Shown here: piece by piece, positions 35,205 to 48,244 of the stretch | How positions within the stretch are numbered: position 1 is the first letter of the stretch | Layout: each line of letters begins with the position of its first letter | From: Terriglobus sp. TAA 43 | GTDB taxonomy: Bacteria; Acidobacteriota; Terriglobia; Terriglobales; Acidobacteriaceae | DNA: 64,000 nucleotides | Direction: 5' to 3' | Assembly (NCBI RefSeq): GCF_000800015.1 | Contig: NZ_JUGR01000004.1 | Location: forward strand, 62,001-126,000 | Translations under genes and position numbers: made by a program | Notes under the pieces: generated by a model | What the model was told of the DNA's origin: nothing | The model's input: the letters and a program-made list of their open reading frames with translations, nothing else | Databases searched by the model: none

Positions 35205-35729
35205 TTACTTCGTCCCCATCTTTCTCTGAGTCAAATCAACCAACTCGTCTCGATCTGAAGGATCAAGCTTCTCAAGCGGAATGAATAGGAATCGCTTCTT
35301 GGCGACGTAGATCAACAGCATGTTGTTGTTACTTACGGCTTTGTATAGGCTCGGCCAGAAAAAGCGGCCTTCACTCGCTCCGTGGATACCTGAAATCAAA
35401 TGCTCATCGTTGGCGCTCAGGTAGCACTCGTGATTCTGGTCGTCTTTCGGAAACATCTGCTTGAACTGTTTCCGAAAGTTATAACGACGTAACAGTGGAA
35501 CCAAGACGGCCAAGCTAAGCAGCCAGAGACTGGGGATGTATCCCGCGATTGGCCAACGCAAATCTTCATCTGGGACCGTACGCATTGCAGAGAAAAGCAT
35601 CAGGAGGCCGAGTGCGGGCATGACGAGTGTCCAGAACAGCAGAGAGAAGCGTGTTGTCGGATGCTTCTTCACGTGCAGAGCTTGTGCGGCTAAATAATCT
35701 TTGAGCTCGAGACGATAATTCGCTTCCAT
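35205..35729 (-). CDS. YcxB-like membrane protein embedded in the his operon
   Basis: A 174-residue protein with two helices (about 28-48 and 62-80) and a C-terminal globular domain with FFWPSLYKAVSNNNMLLIYVAKKRFLFIP, characteristic of YcxB-like proteins of unknown function. Its ATG directly follows the hisH stop and its TAA directly precedes the hisF ATG, so it splits the two subunits of one enzyme yet is tightly embedded in the operon. A his-related role is not implied by the family. Confidence 0.75.
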   Translation of the reverse strand: MEANYRLELKDYLAAQALHVKKHPTTRFSLLFWTLVMPALGLLMLFSAMRTVPDEDLRWPIAGYIPSLWLLSLAVLVPLLRRYNFRKQFKQMFPKDDQNHECYLSANDEHLISGIHGASEGRFFWPSLYKAVSNNNMLLIYVAKKRFLFIPLEKLDPSDRDELVDLTQRKMGTK

Positions 35730-36338
35730 TTAAAGCTCCACAAAATTGCGAAGTAGCTGCAAGCCGGTGTCACCGGATTTTTCTGGGTGGAACTGGACTC
35801 CCATTACGTTGTCGCGTTCTACGGCTGAGGTGAAGGGGCCGCCGTAGCTGGTGGAGGCTGCGGTGTCTTTGCTGATGGGCGCGCGCCAGGAGTGGGTGTA
35901 ATAGACGAACTCGCCGTTGGTGATGCCGCGCAGCAGTTTGCTGTCGGGGCGGATGTCTTCGAGGGAGTTCCAACCGACGTGTGGGCTTTTGAGTTCGGCT
36001 CCGTTGAAGATGGCGGGGAAGCGTTCGCACTTGCCGCCGAAGGCGCAGAGGCCGTCTGTGCTCTCGGCTTCCGTCGAGCCTTGATAGAGCCACTGCAGTC
36101 CCACGCAGATGCCAAGGAAGGGCACGCCGCGTGCGATGGCTTCGCGTGTGGCCTCAGTCAATTGCAGGTCGTGTAGAAGCTGTGTGGCACGGAAGTGGCC
36201 CACGCCGGGAAGGACGATCTTGTCGGCCTTGCGCACGTCGTCGGGCGATTGCGTGATGTTTGTCTTTGCACCGAGGTAGTTAAGCGCCTTAACCACGCTG
36301 GTGAGATTGCCGGCTTTGTAGTCGATTACTTGGATCAT
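35730..36338 (-). CDS. hisH: Imidazole glycerol phosphate synthase, glutaminase subunit
   Basis: A 202-residue class I glutamine amidotransferase that channels ammonia to HisF. The nucleophile is in FLGICVGLQWLY near 78-82, with the catalytic His and Glu in GVQFHPEKSG near 182-186. Its ATG overlaps the stop of the Imm50-like gene (ATGA) and its stop abuts the YcxB-like start. Confidence 0.96.
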   Translation of the reverse strand: MIQVIDYKAGNLTSVVKALNYLGAKTNITQSPDDVRKADKIVLPGVGHFRATQLLHDLQLTEATREAIARGVPFLGICVGLQWLYQGSTEAESTDGLCAFGGKCERFPAIFNGAELKSPHVGWNSLEDIRPDSKLLRGITNGEFVYYTHSWRAPISKDTAASTSYGGPFTSAVERDNVMGVQFHPEKSGDTGLQLLRNFVEL

Positions 36339-36757
36339 GATTTTTCCGAAGCGTAAATGCCATCTTCTGGCACGCCGGGTTTTATTGAGACGGAAACGCG
36401 TTGTGAAGCGATGTGACCTTCAACGCCGAAACAATGGCCAAGAAGAATGGTTATTTGTTCTGACGAGAGCTCAATGGAAAGATCAGACAGCACGTTTTGT
36501 TGGTTGAACCAGCGGAGTTCCATAGACGAGATTTCTTCAAACGAAAACGTAACAATTGCATGTTTGTTGAGCTTGTAGCGGCTACGTTCATCCACTTCGT
36601 TTGTCATCTCGAATGTATGGACGTGAAGGCGGGAACGACCAGCGCGGTGCAACTCAATGTCGACCACCTCTGCATCATGGAAACTCGGCCAACAGCCGAA
36701 CCAATCCACAATCGCTTCGTGGCCTGTAATGCTTTGGTATGCCAGTTCGTCTGCCAT
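36335..36757 (-). CDS. Imm50-like protein translationally coupled to hisH
   Basis: A 140-residue soluble protein. Its GCWPSFHDAEVVDIEL stretch at 21-36 is like the start of the Imm50 immunity family, and the remainder (VTFSFEEISSMELRWFNQQNVL) fits the same beta-rich fold. Family members are usually immunity proteins of polymorphic toxin systems, but there is no toxin next to it, so it may be an orphan or serve another role. It overlaps hisH by four bases. Confidence 0.6.
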   Translation of the reverse strand: MADELAYQSITGHEAIVDWFGCWPSFHDAEVVDIELHRAGRSRLHVHTFEMTNEVDERSRYKLNKHAIVTFSFEEISSMELRWFNQQNVLSDLSIELSSEQITILLGHCFGVEGHIASQRVSVSIKPGVPEDGIYASEKS

Positions 36758-36869: not shown

Positions 36870-37151
36870 TTAGACCGCACCTGATTCGTTCAGCCAAACC
36901 AGGCAGCAAACGAGTGCTACGAGCAGTGCAGCAATTCGTTTCCAACCAAAGCCAAACCAGCCGAATATAAGAGCGATCAGCGCTGCAATGGCACCACGAC
37001 CAACCCAGTTAGACAGGTCATTAACATGACCGTACAGGCCGCCCCAATGTCGGCTCACAACTCTTAAGATCACCATGCAGGCGAGTGAGGCTATATTCGC
37101 AATCATCGCGACTGTGAATAGCCAAACTCGCCACTTTGGTGAGGAAGCCAT
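36870..37151 (-). CDS. Small three-helix membrane protein in the his operon
   Basis: A 93-residue protein with three hydrophobic helices (about 9-30, 50-68 and 72-88). No family recognised. It starts two bases after the hisB stop, so it is part of the his transcript, and the inverted-repeat element follows it. With the Imm50-like and YcxB-like genes it is one of three non-his passengers. Confidence 0.6.
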   Translation of the reverse strand: MASSPKWRVWLFTVAMIANIASLACMVILRVVSRHWGGLYGHVNDLSNWVGRGAIAALIALIFGWFGFGWKRIAALLVALVCCLVWLNESGAV

Positions 37152-37153
37152 CG

Positions 37154-37843
37154 TTAGAGCAATCCTTTGGTGCTCGGCAGCAGGTCTTTCATGCGTTCGT
37201 CGCGGCTTACGGCTCCGCGCAGGGCTCGGGCGAAGGCTTTGAAGATGGCTTCGATTTTGTGGTGGTTGCTGCGGCCGTACATGGTTTTTACGTGGACGTT
37301 GCAGCGGCCGCCGCGGGCGAAGCCGTCGAAAAAGTCGGTGACGAGTTCGGTTTGCATGTCGCCGACGATGGCTACATTGACCTGATCGTCTACGGCGTAG
37401 CCGACGCGGCCGCTGATGTCGATGGCGGCGACGGCGAGTGTCTCGTCCATGGCCATGACGAAGTAGCCTGCGCGAAGGATGCCCTTCTTGTCGCCGAGTG
37501 CTTTATCGAATGCTTCGCCGAGTGCGATGCCTACATCTTCAATGGTGTGATGCTGGTCGACGTCGAGGTCGCCGTTGCAGACGAGGTCGAGATCGAAGCC
37601 GCCGTGGCGCGTGAAGAGTTCCAGCATGTGATCGAAGAAGCGGATCCCGGTGCGGACGTTGTAGGTGCCCTGGCCGTCGAGGTTGAGGCGCAGCTTGATC
37701 TTGGTTTCAGTGGTGTTGCGATCAACCTCCGCGATGCGTGGCGATGCGGTGGCAGCCACTGCGGGAGTGCCCGGCTGATTGGCGAACGCTTCGGTGTATG
37801 CGGGTGCGGTGTGGAGGTCGCTGCCGTTTTCGGGGTTACTCAT
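37154..37843 (-). CDS. hisB: Imidazoleglycerol-phosphate dehydratase
   Basis: A 229-residue monofunctional dehydratase (no phosphatase domain). The two metal-binding motifs QHHTIEDVG near 97 and SNHHKIEA near 193 are intact. The first 35 residues are an extra, Pro/Ala-rich segment before [14 protein letters not shown]. The start overlaps the hisC stop by eight bases, with AAGGAG upstream. Confidence 0.96.
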
Positions 37844-38963
37844 AGTCGGGTGTCTCCTTCGGTTGTGTCTCCGGCTTGTTCACTTCGGCGGGCGTCCATC
37901 CCATGCCTGCAAGCGTGTCGCGGAGTGCGGCGATGCCGGTGGTGATCTGATCTTCAAGGCCGATGGTGATGCGCACGCAGCCATCGAGGCCGGGGTCGCT
38001 GCTGCGGTCGCGGACGAGTACGCCACGTGCGCGCATGCCGTCTACAAATTCCTTGTGGCGCGGGCCAATGTGCATCAGAACGAAGTTCGCGTGCGACTGC
38101 CAGTAGGGCACCTTCATGTTGGCCAACGCTTTGTAGATGCGTTCGCGGCCTTCGGTGATCTGCGCGACGTACCAGTCGATGTATTCGGTGTCGTCCACGC
38201 TGGCGTTGACGGCGGTGAGTGCGATGCCGTTGACGTTGTACGGCGAGCTGGCTTTGCGGAGATGGTTAATCAGCTTAACTGGTCCGGCAATGGCGCCGAC
38301 GCGCAGGTTGGCGAGACCGTAGGCCTTGCTGAAGGTACGAGCCATGAGGATGTTGTCCAGTTCGCCACGAACAAGGTCGTCCATGATGGATTCGCCGAAG
38401 AAGTGGAAGTACGCTTCGTCGACGAGGATGACCGCGTGTGGCGCGGCTTTGGCGATGGTGCGGATCTGTTCGCGCGTGATGGTGTTGCCTGTTGGGTTGT
38501 TCGGCGAGCAGAGGATGATGAGCTTGGTCTTTGGTGTGATGGCTGCGAGCATGCGCTCGTAGGGGAACTCAAGCTTGTCGTCCATCTGGATGCGAACGAG
38601 CTTCGCGCCCATCGCCATCGCGTTGACGTCGTACATGAAGAACGACGGCGTTGCGAAGAGGCATTCGTCACCTTCTTCAAGGAAGGTGTAGGTGACGAGG
38701 TGAATGCCTTCGTCGGTGCCGTTGGCGAGCAACACCTGCTCTGGCTTGAGGCCGTAGTGTGCGGCGACCTTGGCTTCTACTGGGCCACGCTCGGGATAGA
38801 TGGTGAAGCTTTCCAGCGAGAGTGTGCTGAGCGCTTCACGTACGCGCGGCGATGGTGCGTGCGTGTTCTCGTTGAAGTCGAGGCGCAGAGCGTCGCGGCC
38901 GCCGAGGGGCGGGTGATACTCGGGCATGGCGAGGATGGCGCGGCGGGGTTGAATGTCGCTCAT
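37836..38963 (-). CDS. hisC: Histidinol-phosphate aminotransferase
   Basis: A 375-residue fold-type I PLP enzyme. The internal aldimine Lys is in [16 protein letters not shown] near 225; SPNNPTGN near 164 and [10 protein letters not shown] near 192 are conserved. The start is the ATG ending at 38963, overlapping the hisD stop by four bases; the upstream open stretch is a shadow of hisD. Confidence 0.96.
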
Positions 38964-40225
38964 CGTTTGCCTCCTTTTCTGCGGATGCGCACGGAGTTGG
39001 CGTGCGCGATGAGGCCTTCGGCCTCTGCGAGTGCGATGGCGTGCGGCGCGAGTGTGGCGAGGCCGCTGCGCGTGTAGTTCTGCACGGTGATGACTTTGAG
39101 GAAGTCGTTCACGCTGAGTCCACCACGCATGCGACCGACGCGGCCCGTGGGCAGAACGTGGTTGGGGCCGCTGATGTAATCGCCCATGGATTGCGGCGAG
39201 TAGTTGCCGATGAAGACACTGCCCGCGTTGATGACCCACTTGAGGTCCTTGTCGCTATCGACGGTGAGATGTTCGGGTGCGAGGCGATTGGTGATGGTAT
39301 GTGTCTCTTCGATATCGCCGCAGAGGAACACAGTGCCGCGTGCCTTCAACGAGATTTCGGCGAGCTTGTTGCCCTTGGCTTGCAGCTTGGTTTCCGCAAC
39401 AACGTCGCGTGCGAGCTGTTCGTTTGCAGTGACGAAGACGGCGAGTGTTTCGGGGTCGTGCTCAGCCTGCGCGACTAGGTCGGCGGCGATGCCTGCGGCG
39501 TTGCCTTTTTCGCTGGTGACGACGATTTCCGTGGGGCCTGCGGGCATGTCGATGCCGCACTCTGTGCTGGCGATGATCTTGGCGGCGGTGACGTAGAGGT
39601 TGCCGGGACCGACGATCTTATCGACATGTGTGATGGTCTGCGTGCCGTAGGCGAGTGCCGCGATGGCCTGCGCGCCGCCGGTGCGATACATCTCCGTGAT
39701 GCCTGCAAGGTGCGCTGCGGCGAGTGTTTCGCGTGCTGGCTTGGGCGAGCATACAACGATGCGCTTTACGCCTGCGACGGATGCGGGGATCGCGGTCATC
39801 AGCAATGTCGAGGGAAGAGGAAAGCGTCCGCCGGGGACGTAGCAGCCAACGGATTCAAGCGGGCGAACGATCTGGCCTACGGTGACGCCGGGTGTGTTCT
39901 GCGTCATCCACTCTTCGGCCTTCTGTTGTTCGGCGAAGCTGCGGATGTTTTCTGCTGCGGTTTGCAGTGCTGCTTTTAGTTCTGGTGATGTTTCATTCCA
40001 CGCGGCAAGCATTTCTTCCTGCGTTACGCGGATGGGGCCGTTCAGGCTGTCGAACTGCGCTGCGTATTTTAGGAGAGCTTTGTCGCCGTTCTTCTGTACG
40101 TCGCGCATGATCTTGCGAACAATGGGTTCGACTTCGGCGGTTTTGACTGCACCGCGGCGCTCGAGTGTGGCGAGGAGTTCGTAGGCGTTGGCTTTGGCGC
40201 GGCCTGTGGTCTTGATGAGCTTCAT
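38960..40225 (-). CDS. hisD: Histidinol dehydrogenase
   Basis: A 421-residue zinc enzyme that oxidises histidinol to histidine in two NAD-dependent steps. Zinc-site and catalytic stretches DMPAGPTEIVV, AQAEHDP, NRLAPEHL and SGPNHVLPTG are all present, as is VGCYVPGGRFPLPS. Length is normal. It follows hisG after a 151-base gap carrying a dispersed repeat and a long hairpin. Confidence 0.97.
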   Translation of the reverse strand: MKLIKTTGRAKANAYELLATLERRGAVKTAEVEPIVRKIMRDVQKNGDKALLKYAAQFDSLNGPIRVTQEEMLAAWNETSPELKAALQTAAENIRSFAEQQKAEEWMTQNTPGVTVGQIVRPLESVGCYVPGGRFPLPSTLLMTAIPASVAGVKRIVVCSPKPARETLAAAHLAGITEMYRTGGAQAIAALAYGTQTITHVDKIVGPGNLYVTAAKIIASTECGIDMPAGPTEIVVTSEKGNAAGIAADLVAQAEHDPETLAVFVTANEQLARDVVAETKLQAKGNKLAEISLKARGTVFLCGDIEETHTITNRLAPEHLTVDSDKDLKWVINAGSVFIGNYSPQSMGDYISGPNHVLPTGRVGRMRGGLSVNDFLKVITVQNYTRSGLATLAPHAIALAEAEGLIAHANSVRIRRKGGKR

Positions 40226-40376: not shown

Positions 40377-41252
40377 CTACAGAACGACCTTGCTCAGCGG
40401 ATATTCGACGATGCCACTGCCGCCTGCTGCCTTGAGCTTGGGGATCACTTCGCGGACGGTGCTTTCGGGCAGGATGGTGTTCACGGCGACCCAGTTTTCA
40501 TCCTTCAAATGCGACACGGTGGGCGACGAGAGTGCGGGCAGGATCGACAGGATTTCGTCGAGGTTTGCCTTGGGTACGTTGAGCATGAGGCCGACCTGCG
40601 AGAGCGCGTTGATGGCGCCGTTGAGCATGAGCGCCAGGTTGTCGATCTTCTGCTTCTTGAACGGATCGGCGTAGGCAGCCTTGTTGGCGATGAATTGCGT
40701 TTCGCTTTCCATCAGAAGGTCGATGACGCGAAGGCGGTTGGCGCGGAGGCTGTTGCCGGTCTCAGTAACTTCAACGATGGCGTCGCAGAGCATGGGCGGC
40801 TTCACTTCGGTTGCGCCCCAGGAGAAGTCGACCTTAACGTTGATGTTCTTTTCGGCGAAGTAGCGCTTGGTGTACTCGACCAGTTCGGTGGCGATGACTT
40901 TGCCTTCCAGGTCTTCGGGCTTCTGATAGGGCGAGTCTTCGGGAACGCAGAGAACCCACTTTACCTTCTGGCGGCTGGCCTTGGAGTACGTGAGCGACGT
41001 GATGCGCTCAACGTCGGAGAGGTTCTCAAGGATCCAGTCGTTGCCGGTAAGGCCTGCGTCGAGCGAGCCGGTTTCCACGTAGCGTGCCATCTCCTGCGCG
41101 CGGACGAGCATGCATTCGATTTCGGCATCGTTGATGGAAGGGAAGTAGCTGCGGCCCGAGGGGTCGATTTGCCAGCCAGCGAGTTTGAAGAGGTTGAGTG
41201 TGGCGTCCTGGAGGGAGCCCTTGGGGATGCCGAGTTTGAGTTTCTTGCTCAC
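40377..41252 (-). CDS. hisG: ATP phosphoribosyltransferase, long form
   Basis: A 291-residue enzyme for the first step of histidine synthesis. The catalytic part has [13 protein letters not shown] at 7-19, [10 protein letters not shown] near 65 and the phosphate loop near [11 protein letters not shown]; the extra C-terminal domain (about 220-291) is the regulatory ACT-like part of long-form HisG, so no HisZ partner is required. It starts with GTG after GGAG. It is second in the operon after hisI. Confidence 0.96.
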
Positions 41253-41295: not shown

Positions 41296-41643
41296 TTACT
41301 TGCCGAGTTCGATTTCTTTGGTGAAGCAGCTTACGGTGCCTTCGTGGCAGACCAGGCCGTCGCCTTCCACTTCCACCTGGAAGAGCAGCGTGTCAAAGTC
41401 GCAGTCGGTGCGGACGCTGACAATCTTCAGGCGGTTGCCGCTGGTCTCGCCCTTCATCCACAGCTTGTTGCGTGTGCGCGAGAAGAAGGTGACGAAGCCG
41501 GACTCGAGGGTGCGGCGGTAGCTCTCTTCATTCAGGAAGCCGAGCATGAGCATCTGGCCGGTGGCTGCGTCCTGCACGATGCCGGGGACAAGGCCGCCTG
41601 CTTTTGCGAAATCGATGGTGGGTTGCGGTGCTGCTGTGGTCAT
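41296..41643 (-). CDS. hisI: Phosphoribosyl-AMP cyclohydrolase
   Basis: A 115-residue monofunctional enzyme. Zinc ligands occur in RTDCDFD near 75 and [10 protein letters not shown] near 93-100; [15 protein letters not shown] and [16 protein letters not shown] are conserved. The start is the ATG ending at 41643 with a GAGG site; the upstream extension in frame runs into the attenuator. No HisE domain is fused and hisE is not in the window. It is the first enzyme gene behind the His-rich leader. Confidence 0.95.
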
Positions 41644-41693
41644 ACGTTCCTCAAAGTTTCTGTGTGTCGTTTGCGATGAGGCGGACACAACAA

Positions 41694-41724
41694 AGCCCGC
41701 CGGTGAGCATCGCTCGGGCGGGCT
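41694..41724 (-). terminator. his attenuator terminator hairpin
   Basis: On the minus strand AGCCCGCC pairs with GGCGGGCT, with an inner GAGC/GCTC extension, followed by TTGTTGTGT. It lies 33 bases after the leader-peptide stop and 50 bases before hisI, the position expected for an attenuator. A competing antiterminator pairing was not resolved by eye. Confidence 0.75.
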
Positions 41725-41757
41725 GGTGATGAATCGAATCCTGTGCGTTTTGCCTGA

Positions 41758-41841
41758 CTACCGCTTTGCACCGGACACCGCCGCCGTCGCGCTGATGTGC
41801 GCGTGGTGATGATGGCCGTGATGATGCGTGCGGACGAGCAT
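41758..41841 (-). CDS. hisL: his operon leader peptide, eight histidines in 27 residues
   Basis: A 28-codon frame (with stop) starts at an ATG ending at 41841. Its product begins MLVRTHHHGHHHHAH, so eight His codons fall between codons 6 and 15. It ends at a TAG, 33 bases before a terminator hairpin and 114 bases before hisI. In enteric bacteria such a peptide senses charged tRNA-His: ribosome stalling prevents terminator formation. The same layout here argues strongly for attenuation of the his operon. It has no clear ribosome site, and a TTGACA hexamer lies 35-40 bases upstream, so it may be nearly leaderless. Confidence 0.8.
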   Translation of the reverse strand: MLVRTHHHGHHHHAHISATAAVSGAKR

Positions 41842-41845
41842 TGCA

Positions 41846-41881
41846 GGTATAAGGCTACCCGCGATGCGGACGGTATGTCAA
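41846..41881 (-). promoter_or_regulatory. Candidate his operon promoter
   Basis: A perfect TTGACA (minus strand, 41881 down to 41876) is followed after 18 bases by TAGCCT, a poor -10, with TTATAC a little further down. Transcription would start a few bases before the leader ATG. Confidence 0.45.
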
Positions 41882-41978
41882 TTATTTCAGTGCGATGAAG
41901 AGCTGCATCAGCGGTCTATGCAGCAGCGTTGCGGTGGCGTATCTTCCTTACGGAAGTACTCTTTGGAGGACATTTCGT

Positions 41979-42302
41979 ATGAAGTTTTTCCGCTCGCTTC
42001 CCCTTCTTGCACTGGCGCTGACCCTGCTGCCGGTTTCACCCGCGCAGAGCAAGCCGGCAGCCAAGGCTGCTGCAACTGCTCCGACCCCCCCGGCGATGAC
42101 CATGGGTGATCCGCTGGATATCAATACTGCGTCGCTGGACCAACTGCAGGCTCTGCCGGGCATTGGCCAGGTGTACTCGAAGAAGATCATTGATGGTCGC
42201 CCGTACACGGCGAAGAACCAGCTTGTGTCGCGCGGGATTGTTCCCAAGGCGACGTATGACAAGATTTCGTCGCAGATTGTGGCGAAGCAGGTTAAGAAGT
42301 AG
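41979..42302 (+). CDS. Secreted helix-hairpin-helix protein, ComEA-like
   Basis: A 107-residue protein with a signal peptide (MKFFRSLPLLALALTLLPVSPAQS), an Ala/Pro-rich linker and one HhH domain: DINTASLDQLQALPGIGQVYSKKIIDGRPYTAKNQLVSRGIVPKATYDKI (about 50-100). This is the ComEA DNA-binding module, although exported forms with only this module are common and are not proven to act in DNA uptake. GGAGGA precedes the ATG at 41979. A terminator follows. Confidence 0.85.
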   Translation: MKFFRSLPLLALALTLLPVSPAQSKPAAKAAATAPTPPAMTMGDPLDINTASLDQLQALPGIGQVYSKKIIDGRPYTAKNQLVSRGIVPKATYDKISSQIVAKQVKK

Positions 42303-44281: not shown

Positions 44282-47200
44282 ATGCGATTGTGTTTGACTC
44301 CATTGCGGACTGCGCATAGGCAGTCCGTTACCGCGGCGCTGGCATTTGCGGGCGTGTTGCTGTTGCCGGGGTGTGTCCACGGGCAGGCGGCGACGCTGGC
44401 TGCGGATACCGCTGTGGATACTGGTCGCGCGTCCATCAACTTTGGCTCGTTGAGCAATCTGTACATCAACAGCACCAGCACGGCGTTGCTGCGTTTTGAC
44501 TTGGGAATGTTGCCGTCTGGCACGACCGGATCGCAGATCAGCCGGGCCACGCTGCGGCTCTATGTGAATCGTGTGAATACGCCGGGAGTGGTGGGTGTTG
44601 CGCCGGTTTCGGCGGCATGGGCGGAAGGTGCAGTGACCGCGCAGACACTGCCTCCACGGGGCACGGTGGCGCAGGTGTTTGCCGTGACAGATGAGGCGCA
44701 GTTTGTGACCGTCGACGTCACGGCGATGGTGCAGGCGTGGGTGAATGCACCGACCACGAATTTTGGCCTCGCGCTTACAGCGTCCACGGCGGATGTGGCG
44801 TTGGATAGCAAGGAAAGCGATACGACGGCGCATCCAGCTGAGTTGGAGATTGCGCTGACCAGCGGTGTGGTGGGGCCGGTTGGACCGCAGGGGCCGAAGG
44901 GCGATACGGGAGCCACGGGCGCGCAGGGACCGGCTGGGCCTGCGGGTGGTCCTGCTGGCCCGCAAGGGCCTGTTGGACCTCAGGGGCCGAAGGGTGACAA
45001 GGGCGATCCGGGGACGAACGCCTCGGGCATGGCCTACAAGGGTGCGTGGGGCCAGACAACCCTGTATGTGGCGGGTGATGTTGTCACGTCGGCCAATGCT
45101 GCGTGGGTGTCGCTGGTTGCAGCGAATACGGGGAATGTGCCGAGTACGTTCTCAGCATCGTGGGGGCTGCTGGTTCCTGCCGCGAGTGGCGGGTCGGGTT
45201 CGGGAAACGGGCTGCAGTATGCCGGGGCGTACGTGTCCACGACGAACTACAGCACGAACCAGGTAGTGACGTGGCAAAGTGCGGCCTGGGTCTCGTTGCA
45301 CGATGTCAATCACGGAAATACTCCGGATACTTCGTCGGGTGACTGGTCTGTGCTGGTGCCTGCTTCGACGAATCCAGCCACGATAACGACCATCATCAAT
45401 GGGTTGCTGTTTGATGGCGCGTACGCGCCTACGACGAGTTATGCGACGAACCATGTGGTGACCTGGCAGAACACAGCCTGGGTCTCGCTGCATGATGCGA
45501 ATCACGGCAATGCGCCGGATGTTTCGATGAATGACTGGGCCGTGCTGGTGCCTGCTGGCATTGGGATTCAGGGACCGCAGGGCGTCGCTGGGACCACCGG
45601 ACCACAGGGGCCTCAGGGTGTGAAGGGCGACACGGGTGACATTGGGCCTCAGGGTGACCGCGGTGCGACGGGCGCTACGGGGCGTCCGGGGTTTGTGTAT
45701 CAGGGTGCGTATGCATCTGCCACGAACTATGCAGCGGGCGATGTGGTGGTGTGGCAGGGCGGGTCGTGGTCTTCACTGGTGGATTCGAATCAAGGGAACA
45801 CGCCCGATAGTTCGCCAACGTATTGGGGCGCGTTGACCTCGCAAGGGCCTCAGGGTGCCAAGGGTGACAAAGGCGACACCGGAGTTCCTGGACCGCAGGG
45901 CCCGGCGGGTATGGTTGGTGCGGCTGGGCAGCAGGGGCCGACCGGGCCTGTCGGATCAACGGGGCCTCAGGGTGCTCCGGGTCGTGATGGTGCCCAGGGA
46001 GTGCAGGGTGATCGTGGACCGGTGGGGCCTCAGGGTGATCCGGGGCCCGCGGGGATGACGTGGCGGGGGACGTATGCGTCGTCCACGAACTACGCCGCGA
46101 ACGATGCCGTCGCGTGGCAGGGACAGACCTGGCTTTCGCTGCATGGGGAGAACCAGGGGAATACGCCGGACAGCTCACCTGCGGACTGGACGCTGTTGGC
46201 CGCGGCGGGAGCTACGGGGTCGCAAGGGCCGCAGGGTGTTCAGGGACTTCAAGGGGTGCAAGGGCCAGCGGGTCCCCAAGGTGCGAAGGGTGATACCGGC
46301 GATACCGGCGCTCAAGGCTCGCAGGGTATTGCGGGAATGCAGTATCTGGGCGCTTACAACAGCAGCACCAGTTACGCGTTGCATGACGCGGTGACGTATG
46401 CGGGCGGGACATGGATTTCACTGCAGGCGACGAACCATGGCAATCCACCGGATTCGTCGGCGCTGTGGTGGCAGCAGATTGCTGCTCCGGGAGCGCAGGG
46501 GCCGATGGGTTCGCAGGGTGTTGCAGGGCCACAGGGAGCTGCGGGATCGCAGGGTGTACAGGGTCCGACGGGACCGGCAGGACCGCAAGGACAGCCAGTA
46601 CGCTTTCTGGGGCCGTGGTCGGCGACAACCGCATACACGACGGGCGATGCGGTGTTTTACGGCGGGTCGGCGTATATCGCTTTCGGTGCGGTTACGGGGA
46701 ATGCTCCCGGTGTGAGTCCGGTGTGGCAGTTGCTGGCGCAGAAGGGCGATACAGGAGCGGCGGGTTTGCCGGGCACACAGGGAATTCAGGGTCCTCAGGG
46801 AAGCCAGGGAGCGTCTGGTGCAACCGGGCCGCAAGGCGCTGCGGGATTGCAGTGGAAGGGCGCATGGAACGCCAGCACCGGGTATGTGACGGGTGATGCG
46901 GTTTCGTATGGCGGTTCCGCTTACATCTCCACGTCTGATGTGAATGTGGCGGTGACGCCGGGAACGTCGGCGTTGTGGTCACTGTTGGCGGCTGCGGGTG
47001 TCGCGGGGCCTGCGGGGACGAACGGCAACAATGGCACGGATGGTGCTACGGGTGCAGCCGCGACGATTCAGGTGGGGACAGTCACGACTGGCGCCGCCGG
47101 TAGCAATGTGGTGGTGCAGAACGCGGGTAGTAGCAATGCTGCTGTTTTGAATTTCACCATTCCGCAGGGAGCGACCGGGGCCGCGGGTTCGCCGGGTTTG

Positions 47201-48244
47201 ACGTACAAGGGAACGTGGCTGAACGGTACCGGATACAGCCTGGGGGACGTGGTTTTCGAAGCGGGTTCTTCGTATGTGTCCCGGCGTAGTACGAATACCG
47301 CTGATCCGTCAGTGTCCGTTGCGAACAATACCGGCGATTGGTCATTGCTCGCTTCGCAGGGAAGCCCGGGACCTGCAACCGTTGCGATAGGCACAGTGAC
47401 CAGCGGTGCAGCGGCTGCTGTTACGAACACCGGGACTTCGAATGCAGCGGTATTGAACTTCACCTTGCCGAAGGGCGATACGGGCTCAACCGGCGCGGTG
47501 GGGCTTACGTTTCTGGGTGCGTGGGACAGTTCCATTTCCTACGCGCCGACGAGTGTGGTCACGTACAACGGTTCGGCTTACTTCGCACGTGCTGCCAGTA
47601 GCGGGGTTCATCCGGTCGGGGATGCGACGAGTGTGTCGGCATGGGCTCTCCTGGCGGCGGCGGGAGTCGCAGGTGCAGCCGGAGTGGCGCCGTCGATCAG
47701 CGTATCTGCCACGCACACCGGAGCGGCGGGAACCTCTGCGATTGTGAAGAACGTGAGCACCGACCCGACGAGCATCCAGCTGGACTTCACCATCCCAAAG
47801 GGCGATACCGGCGCGACCGGACCTACGGGTGCGACCGGGCCTACGGGCTCGGGCGGTGGGGGCGGCTCGTTCTTCACGTCAGTCCACGCGGTTGCGAATG
47901 GTGTGGCGCAGTATTACAACCCTCTGACGGATGTGAAAAGCGCCACGGAGTTGGGGACAGTGCTGCAGTGGCTACCTTCCACCTGCAATCTGTCCAGCGT
48001 CCAAGCGTATTACTACGCGGCCGCCATTACTGGCGGTCAGACGACGAATGCGCAATTGACCATTCGGACAGGCACGCCGGGGAATATGAGCGCGAATCCG
48101 TCCACAGCCTGCACCGTGGCACCGAACACCACGACGACATGCACAGGGCCGGGAACTCTGGGGGCCGGCAACTTTGTGTCGCTTTACATCTCGACGATCG
48201 CGACGACAACGTCGTACCTGTACACGCAGTTCAGTTGTAATTAG
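44282..48244 (+). CDS. Secreted collagen-like protein with ten CBM5/12-like modules
   Basis: A 1320-residue mosaic. After a signal peptide (LLLPGC at 27-32 could even be a lipobox, though Pro at -2 is unusual) comes a beta-rich DNRLRE/CBM96-like domain to about 195. Then Gly-X-Y tracts alternate with ten modules of about 45 residues of the form Y-x-GAW...Y..GD.V...G..W.SL...N.GN.PD.S..W..L, the pattern of chitin-binding CBM5/12. Three further repeats of about 40 residues carry NAAVLNFTIPQG-type strands, as in viral tail and spore collagen proteins. A 125-residue C-terminal domain may drive trimer formation. It is probably a surface fibre that binds polysaccharide (inference). Confidence 0.85.
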   Translation: MRLCLTPLRTAHRQSVTAALAFAGVLLLPGCVHGQAATLAADTAVDTGRASINFGSLSNLYINSTSTALLRFDLGMLPSGTTGSQISRATLRLYVNRVNTPGVVGVAPVSAAWAEGAVTAQTLPPRGTVAQVFAVTDEAQFVTVDVTAMVQAWVNAPTTNFGLALTASTADVALDSKESDTTAHPAELEIALTSGVVGPVGPQGPKGDTGATGAQGPAGPAGGPAGPQGPVGPQGPKGDKGDPGTNASGMAYKGAWGQTTLYVAGDVVTSANAAWVSLVAANTGNVPSTFSASWGLLVPAASGGSGSGNGLQYAGAYVSTTNYSTNQVVTWQSAAWVSLHDVNHGNTPDTSSGDWSVLVPASTNPATITTIINGLLFDGAYAPTTSYATNHVVTWQNTAWVSLHDANHGNAPDVSMNDWAVLVPAGIGIQGPQGVAGTTGPQGPQGVKGDTGDIGPQGDRGATGATGRPGFVYQGAYASATNYAAGDVVVWQGGSWSSLVDSNQGNTPDSSPTYWGALTSQGPQGAKGDKGDTGVPGPQGPAGMVGAAGQQGPTGPVGSTGPQGAPGRDGAQGVQGDRGPVGPQGDPGPAGMTWRGTYASSTNYAANDAVAWQGQTWLSLHGENQGNTPDSSPADWTLLAAAGATGSQGPQGVQGLQGVQGPAGPQGAKGDTGDTGAQGSQGIAGMQYLGAYNSSTSYALHDAVTYAGGTWISLQATNHGNPPDSSALWWQQIAAPGAQGPMGSQGVAGPQGAAGSQGVQGPTGPAGPQGQPVRFLGPWSATTAYTTGDAVFYGGSAYIAFGAVTGNAPGVSPVWQLLAQKGDTGAAGLPGTQGIQGPQGSQGASGATGPQGAAGLQWKGAWNASTGYVTGDAVSYGGSAYISTSDVNVAVTPGTSALWSLLAAAGVAGPAGTNGNNGTDGATGAAATIQVGTVTTGAAGSNVVVQNAGSSNAAVLNFTIPQGATGAAGSPGLTYKGTWLNGTGYSLGDVVFEAGSSYVSRRSTNTADPSVSVANNTGDWSLLASQGSPGPATVAIGTVTSGAAAAVTNTGTSNAAVLNFTLPKGDTGSTGAVGLTFLGAWDSSISYAPTSVVTYNGSAYFARAASSGVHPVGDATSVSAWALLAAAGVAGAAGVAPSISVSATHTGAAGTSAIVKNVSTDPTSIQLDFTIPKGDTGATGPTGATGPTGSGGGGGSFFTSVHAVANGVAQYYNPLTDVKSATELGTVLQWLPSTCNLSSVQAYYYAAAITGGQTTNAQLTIRTGTPGNMSANPSTACTVAPNTTTTCTGPGTLGAGNFVSLYISTIATTTSYLYTQFSCN

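Follow-up and report, generated by a model that had tools for sequence, protein, structure and literature searches.

Does the short, histidine-rich reading frame in front of hisI in Terriglobus sp. TAA 43 control the his operon behind it, and how would a ribosome find a frame that opens almost at its own promoter? The window analyzed here is a 64,000-nucleotide stretch of this genome, and the features described below lie on its minus strand unless noted otherwise. We consider it very probable, from comparison with related loci, that the region is a ribosome-mediated attenuator controlling transcription of the his operon, and that the transcript carrying it is leaderless or nearly so.

The first structural gene is hisI (41296..41643, ATG at 41643; NCBIfam NF000768 at 128.5 bits, with a cut-off of 126, and PF01502), which is preceded by a Shine-Dalgarno-like GAGGA at 41648..41652. 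It is followed by hisG (40377..41252; TIGR00070, 168 bits; TIGR03455, 106.5 bits), hisD (38960..40225; TIGR00069, 478.5 bits), hisC (37836..38969; TIGR01141, 286 bits), hisB (37154..37843; NF002111, 249.2 bits), and hisH (35730..36338; TIGR01855, 198 bits). Small ORFs lie around hisB and hisH at 36335-36757, which has no NCBIfam match, 36870-37151, and 35205-35729. A sequence-only reading of this DNA had put hisI rather than hisG at the head of the operon, and hisI does directly follow the leader both in the window and in relatives. Upstream, the nearest longer gene-like ORF (41895-42302) is on the opposite strand, so the hairpin described below seems not to serve as the terminator of a gene upstream. 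Farther away, the plus strand carries a 1320-residue ORF (44282-48244) with long collagen-like Gly-X-Y stretches, between which repeated units can be made out by eye.

The leader ORF, MLVRTHHHGHHHHAHISATAAVSGAKR with the stop codon TAG, occupies 41758..41841 and has 27 codons, with His at codons 6, 7, 8, 10, 11, 12, 13, and 15 (regulatory codons 6-15, 41797..41826) and the TAG at 41760-41758. The earlier description of a 27-residue frame with eight His codons was thus accurate in all its coordinates, as were the spacings that it gave, 33 bases from the stop to the hairpin and 50 bases from the hairpin to the hisI ATG. Dinucleotide shuffles, 20 for each of 157 upstream regions (3140 in all), gave a best cluster of 5 His in 12 codons in 10 cases and of 6 in one, with none higher; the real regions held 4 to 9, with 4 in 7 regions and at least 5 in the other 150. 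A short ORF rich in codons for the operon's end product, one of the marks of an attenuator, is found here (8 His in 27 codons) and before hisI in 170 of the 181 loci counted.

These loci came from two HisI searches: one of genome contigs, from which the best 80 of 327 loci were kept (the nearest titled Terriglobus, Granulicella, and Acidobacteriaceae), and one of 150 genomes of the window's family, 111 of which had a match. Upstream regions were read for L002-L186. The family set, L082-L186, comprises 105 fetched loci and includes the window (L082), with 9 fragmentary matches left out. L009, L016, L048, and L073 were dropped from the 185 loci as identical over the leader's first 90 nt, and L001 was dropped as the same locus as L082. 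For the promoter, folding, and Shine-Dalgarno tests, the 170 leader-bearing loci were thinned to 157 at 80% identity.

A His-rich short ORF, with 5 to 9 His in its best 12 codons, precedes hisI in 104 of the 105 family loci; the sole exception, L136, has only 36 nt of upstream sequence. L136 is also among the 11 loci overall in which the finder called no leader. Two others, L029 and L063, likewise have truncated upstream sequence, with the end of a His run visible in L029; L072 has a leader that the finder script missed; L074, L075, L078, L080, and L081 carry non-acidobacterial titles; and L047 and L061 are acidobacterial loci with full upstream sequence and no leader. Outside the family, the leader was found before hisI in 14 of 60 loci, which represent 59 of the 60 genera outside the family that gave a HisI match among 199 phylum genomes sampled. 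Among the remaining 46, 45 have no His cluster within 320 nt of upstream sequence (215 nt for L251), and L258 has a cluster of 3; in many of these loci, hisI is probably fused or internal, since the open frame there far exceeds the length of hisI. Almost every family locus thus has the leader, whereas its distribution across the phylum is patchy.

Six contigs titled Acidimicrobiia, Acidimicrobium, or Actinobacteria (L020, L049, L056, L067, L069, and L073) also carry a His leader before hisI. They are metagenome bins, whose titles can be wrong, and common ancestry, transfer, or wrong binning could each account for them. As a separate observation, 39 of the 150 family genomes gave no HisI match. 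When 20 of these were searched again, a profile for PRA-CH found nothing in any of them, and 19 had no HisG match, the other having a 43-residue fragment; the same HisI/PRA-CH profile search matched 13 of 14 control genomes, missing Bacillus subtilis. Family genomes without HisI are possible histidine auxotrophs.

Between the leader ORF and hisI lies a 31-nt hairpin that we read as an intrinsic terminator (C:D; 41694..41724, AGCCCGCC...GGCGGGCT, -21.5 kcal/mol), followed by an interrupted T-rich tail, TTGTTGTGT, at 41685..41693. The GC hairpin with a T-rich tail noticed in the sequence-only reading is therefore present, with a tail that is weaker than in many relatives, and a simple scan called no terminator on the minus strand at the hairpin. 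A terminator in this position is a general feature of the leader-bearing loci: a hairpin of -15 kcal/mol or lower with a T tract lies downstream of the leader in 167 of 170, compared with 13 of 170 dinucleotide shuffles, and the median hairpin energies are -22.3 for real and -9.4 for shuffled sequences. Only strength discriminates, since a hairpin of any stability with a T tract was found in all 170 real sequences and in 111 of the 170 shuffled ones. In the window, the whole region folds better than its shuffles (z -2.51; 3 of 200 as good). The comparison of upstream regions proposed in the sequence-only reading thus finds both the His run and the hairpin conserved.

Attenuation would also call for a competing structure just past the regulatory codons, and the relatives have one. 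Beyond the last His codon, a stretch of the leader (codons like V-S-A; DNA GTGTCGGCGG and variants) is able to base-pair with the terminator 5' arm (CCCGCCGACGC or variants of it). In the window, the proposed antiterminator would pair segment B, GCGCGACGGCGGCGGTG (41776..41792), as the 5' arm, with segment C, CACCAGCCCGCC (41717..41728), as the 3' arm, which overlaps the terminator 5' arm and whose extent here is our own reading. Segments A and B can also fold into a small hairpin (CGCGC/GCGCG) over the last His codons (41788..41803), a putative pause or anti-antiterminator hairpin. In relatives, A begins at the last His codon and pairs with the start of B; the form with a loop of 5 makes 4.28 of 5 pairs on average, and all five in 44 of 79 loci.

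We scored B against C in 79 of 105 deduplicated loci with HisI identity of at least 60% (a different set from the 105 family loci), the other 26 having no peptide anchor. B was anchored by its peptide motif and C by CCCGC, with pairing not consulted. The two segments form a mean of 10.19 of 13 pairs, against 9.86 (sd 0.057, maximum 10.05 in 2000) when C is permuted among loci and 3.4-6.3 when the register is slid by 1-4; these slide and permutation controls are the only guard for a register chosen after viewing the sequences. Cells changed on both sides, which signal compensatory change, number 35, compared with a shuffled mean of 17.4 and a maximum of 29 in 1000, and extra pair types show no excess (15 against 15.5 shuffled, 79 loci); kinship of the loci inflates such covariation statistics, which we take as support and not as probability. 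A register one base off, used with a looser pattern, was rejected: it gave 4.49 of 12 pairs against 4.63 permuted, no excess, in the 90 loci with HisI identity of at least 60% counted among 131 selected from 157.

Locus by locus, the duplex formed by the B region beats all 30 shuffles in 65 of 157 loci, and at most one shuffle is as good in 95 of 157. The window's own B:C duplex is imperfect and was matched by 9 of 30 shuffles, as was that of a same-genus relative (L084). The competing antiterminator sought by folding is thus found in relatives, with compensatory change, but is not convincing in the window's own sequence. Classical attenuators follow a plan of 1:2, 2:3, and 3:4 pairing, and the A:B, B:C, and C:D pairings read from the relatives' sequences are this plan.

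The same pairing bears on another explanation, in which the His-rich ORF would encode a small peptide with a metal-binding role of its own, the hairpin would be its terminator, and hisI would have an additional internal promoter. Metal binding is known for His-rich peptides, and the C-terminal part of the leader is conserved along with its His run. That conservation is, however, explained by the pairing of the C-terminal codons with the terminator arm, the peptides of distant lineages have little in common except the His run, and the position of the ORF before hisI in all but one of the fetched family loci (104 of 105) also argues against a free-standing peptide, which we regard as quite improbable.

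How the competing structures would act as a switch can be examined by folding. At equilibrium, the terminator is favored in the whole leader wherever the ribosome sits (medians 0.85-0.96; 0.77-0.87 at the least favorable stall position), a result to be expected when the terminator is strong; the antiterminator must therefore win kinetically. When folding is computed before the 3' arm of the terminator has been made, C pairs with RNA upstream of it more when the ribosome sits on the His codons than when it is at the stop, with means of 0.72 v 0.54, 0.68 v 0.38, and 0.76 v 0.45 in the three HisI identity classes defined below, and this pairing is higher in 128 of 157 loci. Neither the window (0.72 v 0.77) nor L084 (0.72 v 0.77) shows this contrast. 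With the window's own pairing no better than shuffled and the contrast absent there, the switch mechanism for the window is argued from its family.

An RNA element of another kind, a histidine T-box or other riboswitch that binds tRNA or a metabolite, with the ORF incidental, might also be considered, as his genes are under T-boxes in Firmicutes according to the available part of PMC9413887. The conserved feature here is the His frame, and Rfam 15 at the gathering threshold found no family in the window or 20 related loci, including the T-box and His_leader (RF00514); with E up to 10, three unrelated weak matches appeared in the region, none of them a T-box. We find this explanation scarcely credible.

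If attenuation is the mechanism, the next question is how the leader is translated. The perfect TTGACA reported upstream of the leader is present as a -35 element (41876..41881) and is conserved in relatives. At 18 nt from it and 10 nt before the leader ATG is a -10 element, TAGCCT (41852..41857), of the form TANNNT, also supported by relatives. Transcription usually starts 6-8 nt from the -10 element, so the predicted start (41841..41846) coincides with the leader ATG or precedes it by no more than about five bases.

We examined this layout in the deduplicated loci in three classes of HisI identity: at least 70% (70 loci), 60-70% (35), and below 60% (52), with the leader start codon picked by frame alone as the nearest ATG, or else GTG or TTG, no more than 16 codons upstream of the cluster's first His. 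TTGAC and TANNNT at a spacing of 16-19, within 60 nt upstream of the leader, occur in 70/70, 28/35, and 17/52 loci by class, compared with shuffled means of 0.2, 0.12, and 0.04. A TANNNT starting at -20 to -12 of the leader start codon occurs in 67/70, 30/35, and 51/52 loci (shuffled means 7.3, 3.9, and 5.0), or 148 of 157 overall, which is the -10 placement taken as a sign of leaderless mRNAs in PMC3160421, where, in the part of the text available, the mark of a leaderless gene is a TANNNT about 12 bp upstream. Shine-Dalgarno four-mers were compared in the 155 of 157 loci with an in-frame hisI ATG. Before the leader, they are not enriched, and the second sign of a leaderless mRNA, the lack of a Shine-Dalgarno signal, is thus also seen (6/70, 4/35, and 4/50, against 7.2, 3.4, and 4.9 shuffled); before hisI, the positive control, they are in excess (54/70, 26/35, and 24/50, against 22.4, 11.0, and 12.4).

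An alternative account is a his attenuator of the classical type whose transcript has an ordinary 5' untranslated region, with a promoter further upstream, a weak and unrecognized ribosome site, and the TTGACA and TANNNT incidental. The window's -10 element is indeed a weak match, agreeing with TATAAT at 3 of 6 positions, and a simple scan of the minus strand found no sigma-70 promoter in the leader region. Against this, TTGAC and TANNNT stand at promoter spacing in 115 of 157 loci (absent in 42), where the shuffled means sum to less than 1, and the TANNNT begins at -16 to -14 in 110 of 157 loci, that is, 8-10 nt from the ATG, at HisI identities down to about 50%. An unrecognized ribosome site also fits poorly with leader four-mers near shuffled levels next to the excess at hisI, and we judge an ordinary untranslated region improbable. 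Since the gap from the -10 element to the leader ATG is mostly 8-10 bases and the leader, unlike hisI, has no excess of Shine-Dalgarno four-mers, the leader transcript is most likely leaderless or nearly so. The suggestion in the sequence-only reading that the leader has no clear ribosome site and may be nearly leaderless is borne out by the distance from promoter to ATG and the missing Shine-Dalgarno signal.

Drawn from the His codons, the terminator, the A:B and B:C pairings of relatives, the promoter spacing, and the missing Shine-Dalgarno signal, the proposed attenuator would work as follows. RNA polymerase would start within a few bases of the leader AUG, and a ribosome, probably a whole 70S, would load on this 5' AUG without Shine-Dalgarno contact. 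With charged His-tRNA plentiful, the ribosome would traverse the His codons and the A:B hairpin would re-form behind it, allowing terminator C:D to halt transcription about 50 bases before hisI. With His-tRNA short, the ribosome would stall on the His run and cover A, leaving B free for C; B:C pairing would then pre-empt the terminator, and hisI-hisG-hisD-hisC-hisB-hisH would be transcribed. The enteric-like logic first suggested for this leader is in this way supported by the relatives, in their conserved His run, hairpin, and B:C covariation.

Similar to the enteric his attenuator (hisL; RF00514), the system has a leader ORF with a His run, a terminator before the first his gene, and a competing antiterminator. 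Enteric hisL has 7 consecutive His in an 18-residue peptide, according to the part of PMC3896937 available. In contrast, the window has no Rfam match, hisI is the first gene, its His codons are interrupted by Gly, Arg, and Ala, and its leader has a promoter abutting the ATG and no Shine-Dalgarno signal. His-rich leader ORFs with a terminator and an antiterminator are also described outside Proteobacteria, in Firmicutes, before hisS paralogues in bacilli and his operons in the B. cereus group and others (PMC2965389, PMC9413887). Unlike the leader described here, these occur in scattered lineages (17 genomes in PMC9413887), and the available portions of these papers mention no leaderless start.

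The sequence-only reading had called a nearly leaderless start an unusual way to run attenuation, which needs toning down, as leaderless leader peptides have been published. In Sinorhizobium meliloti, the attenuator RNA of trpL (rnTrpL) starts with the leader ORF's own ATG (PMC7298713, in the part available), the arrangement that we predict here for a transcription attenuator; that system differs in reading Trp through a 14-residue leader and in belonging to Alphaproteobacteria. Mycobacterial leaderless polycysteine short ORFs (Canestrari 2020, as cited in PMC9031893 and PMC13236596) likewise attenuate an operon through repeated regulatory codons, and differ in using Cys and in that PMC9031893, as far as its available text goes, describes regulation of the translation of downstream genes. 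For mapped transcription starts in Acidobacteria, the only literature that we found is the computational survey PMC3160421, whose available part gives a leaderless signal in 3 of 3 acidobacterial genomes at an average of 13.3% of genes. The open-licence literature yielded no acidobacterial his attenuator; an older attenuation survey (Lopatovskaya 2010) may hold acidobacterial predictions. Each component is known, and, as far as could be seen, the combination and its spread have not been described.

The same genome has other places that resemble this layout. A short ORF, MTMRLNSTHCCCLCMQAGSVARR, stands behind a TTGACA-TANNNT-ATG layout (L201; G000:C1, ~3041990-3042099, minus) and upstream of an ORF that we take to be peroxiredoxin-like; it may be a leaderless Cys leader. 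Among 60 family genomes, only the strain's own carried the exact THCCC-LC pattern at the DNA level. Another short ORF, MRTLSQLCCCSR, with three Cys codons, lies directly behind a TTGACA-TANNNT promoter-like site and about 60 nt before another ORF (L203; G000:C5:63761-63835, plus). Genome-wide, TTGACA-TANNNT-ATG occurs at 7 sites against 3 in a backward control, and a looser pattern at 15 against 20; with such counts, sites of this kind alone mean little. Around leuA, ilvB, and trpE (5 places in the same genome, about 1.5 kb upstream of each), the short frames listed showed by eye no leader peptide of the kind expected, so leaderless attenuation does not emerge as general in this genome. The divergent gene beside leuA is presumably LysR-like.

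A more tentative idea, which we hold to be possible though rather doubtful, is that the leaderless start is part of the sensor. In the family and in scattered relatives, including the contigs labelled Acidimicrobiia, his attenuation would then have stayed coupled to the loading of a 70S ribosome on a 5' AUG. The attenuator would thereby respond to the charging of His-tRNA and also to how well the cell can initiate on leaderless messages, and RNA polymerase and ribosome would be synchronized from the first nucleotides.

Little has been charted of gene regulation in Acidobacteria, which are abundant in soil. Almost none of the attenuators predicted for them in a 2010 survey have an associated function, according to the available part of PMC2965389. 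In this case, sequence tells what the attenuator does, which amino acid it senses, and, in relatives, how its pairing switch is built. Because attenuation fails if the ribosome is late, these leaders may offer a natural setting in which to study how RNA polymerase, while transcribing, stays in step with a ribosome that loads independently of a Shine-Dalgarno signal.
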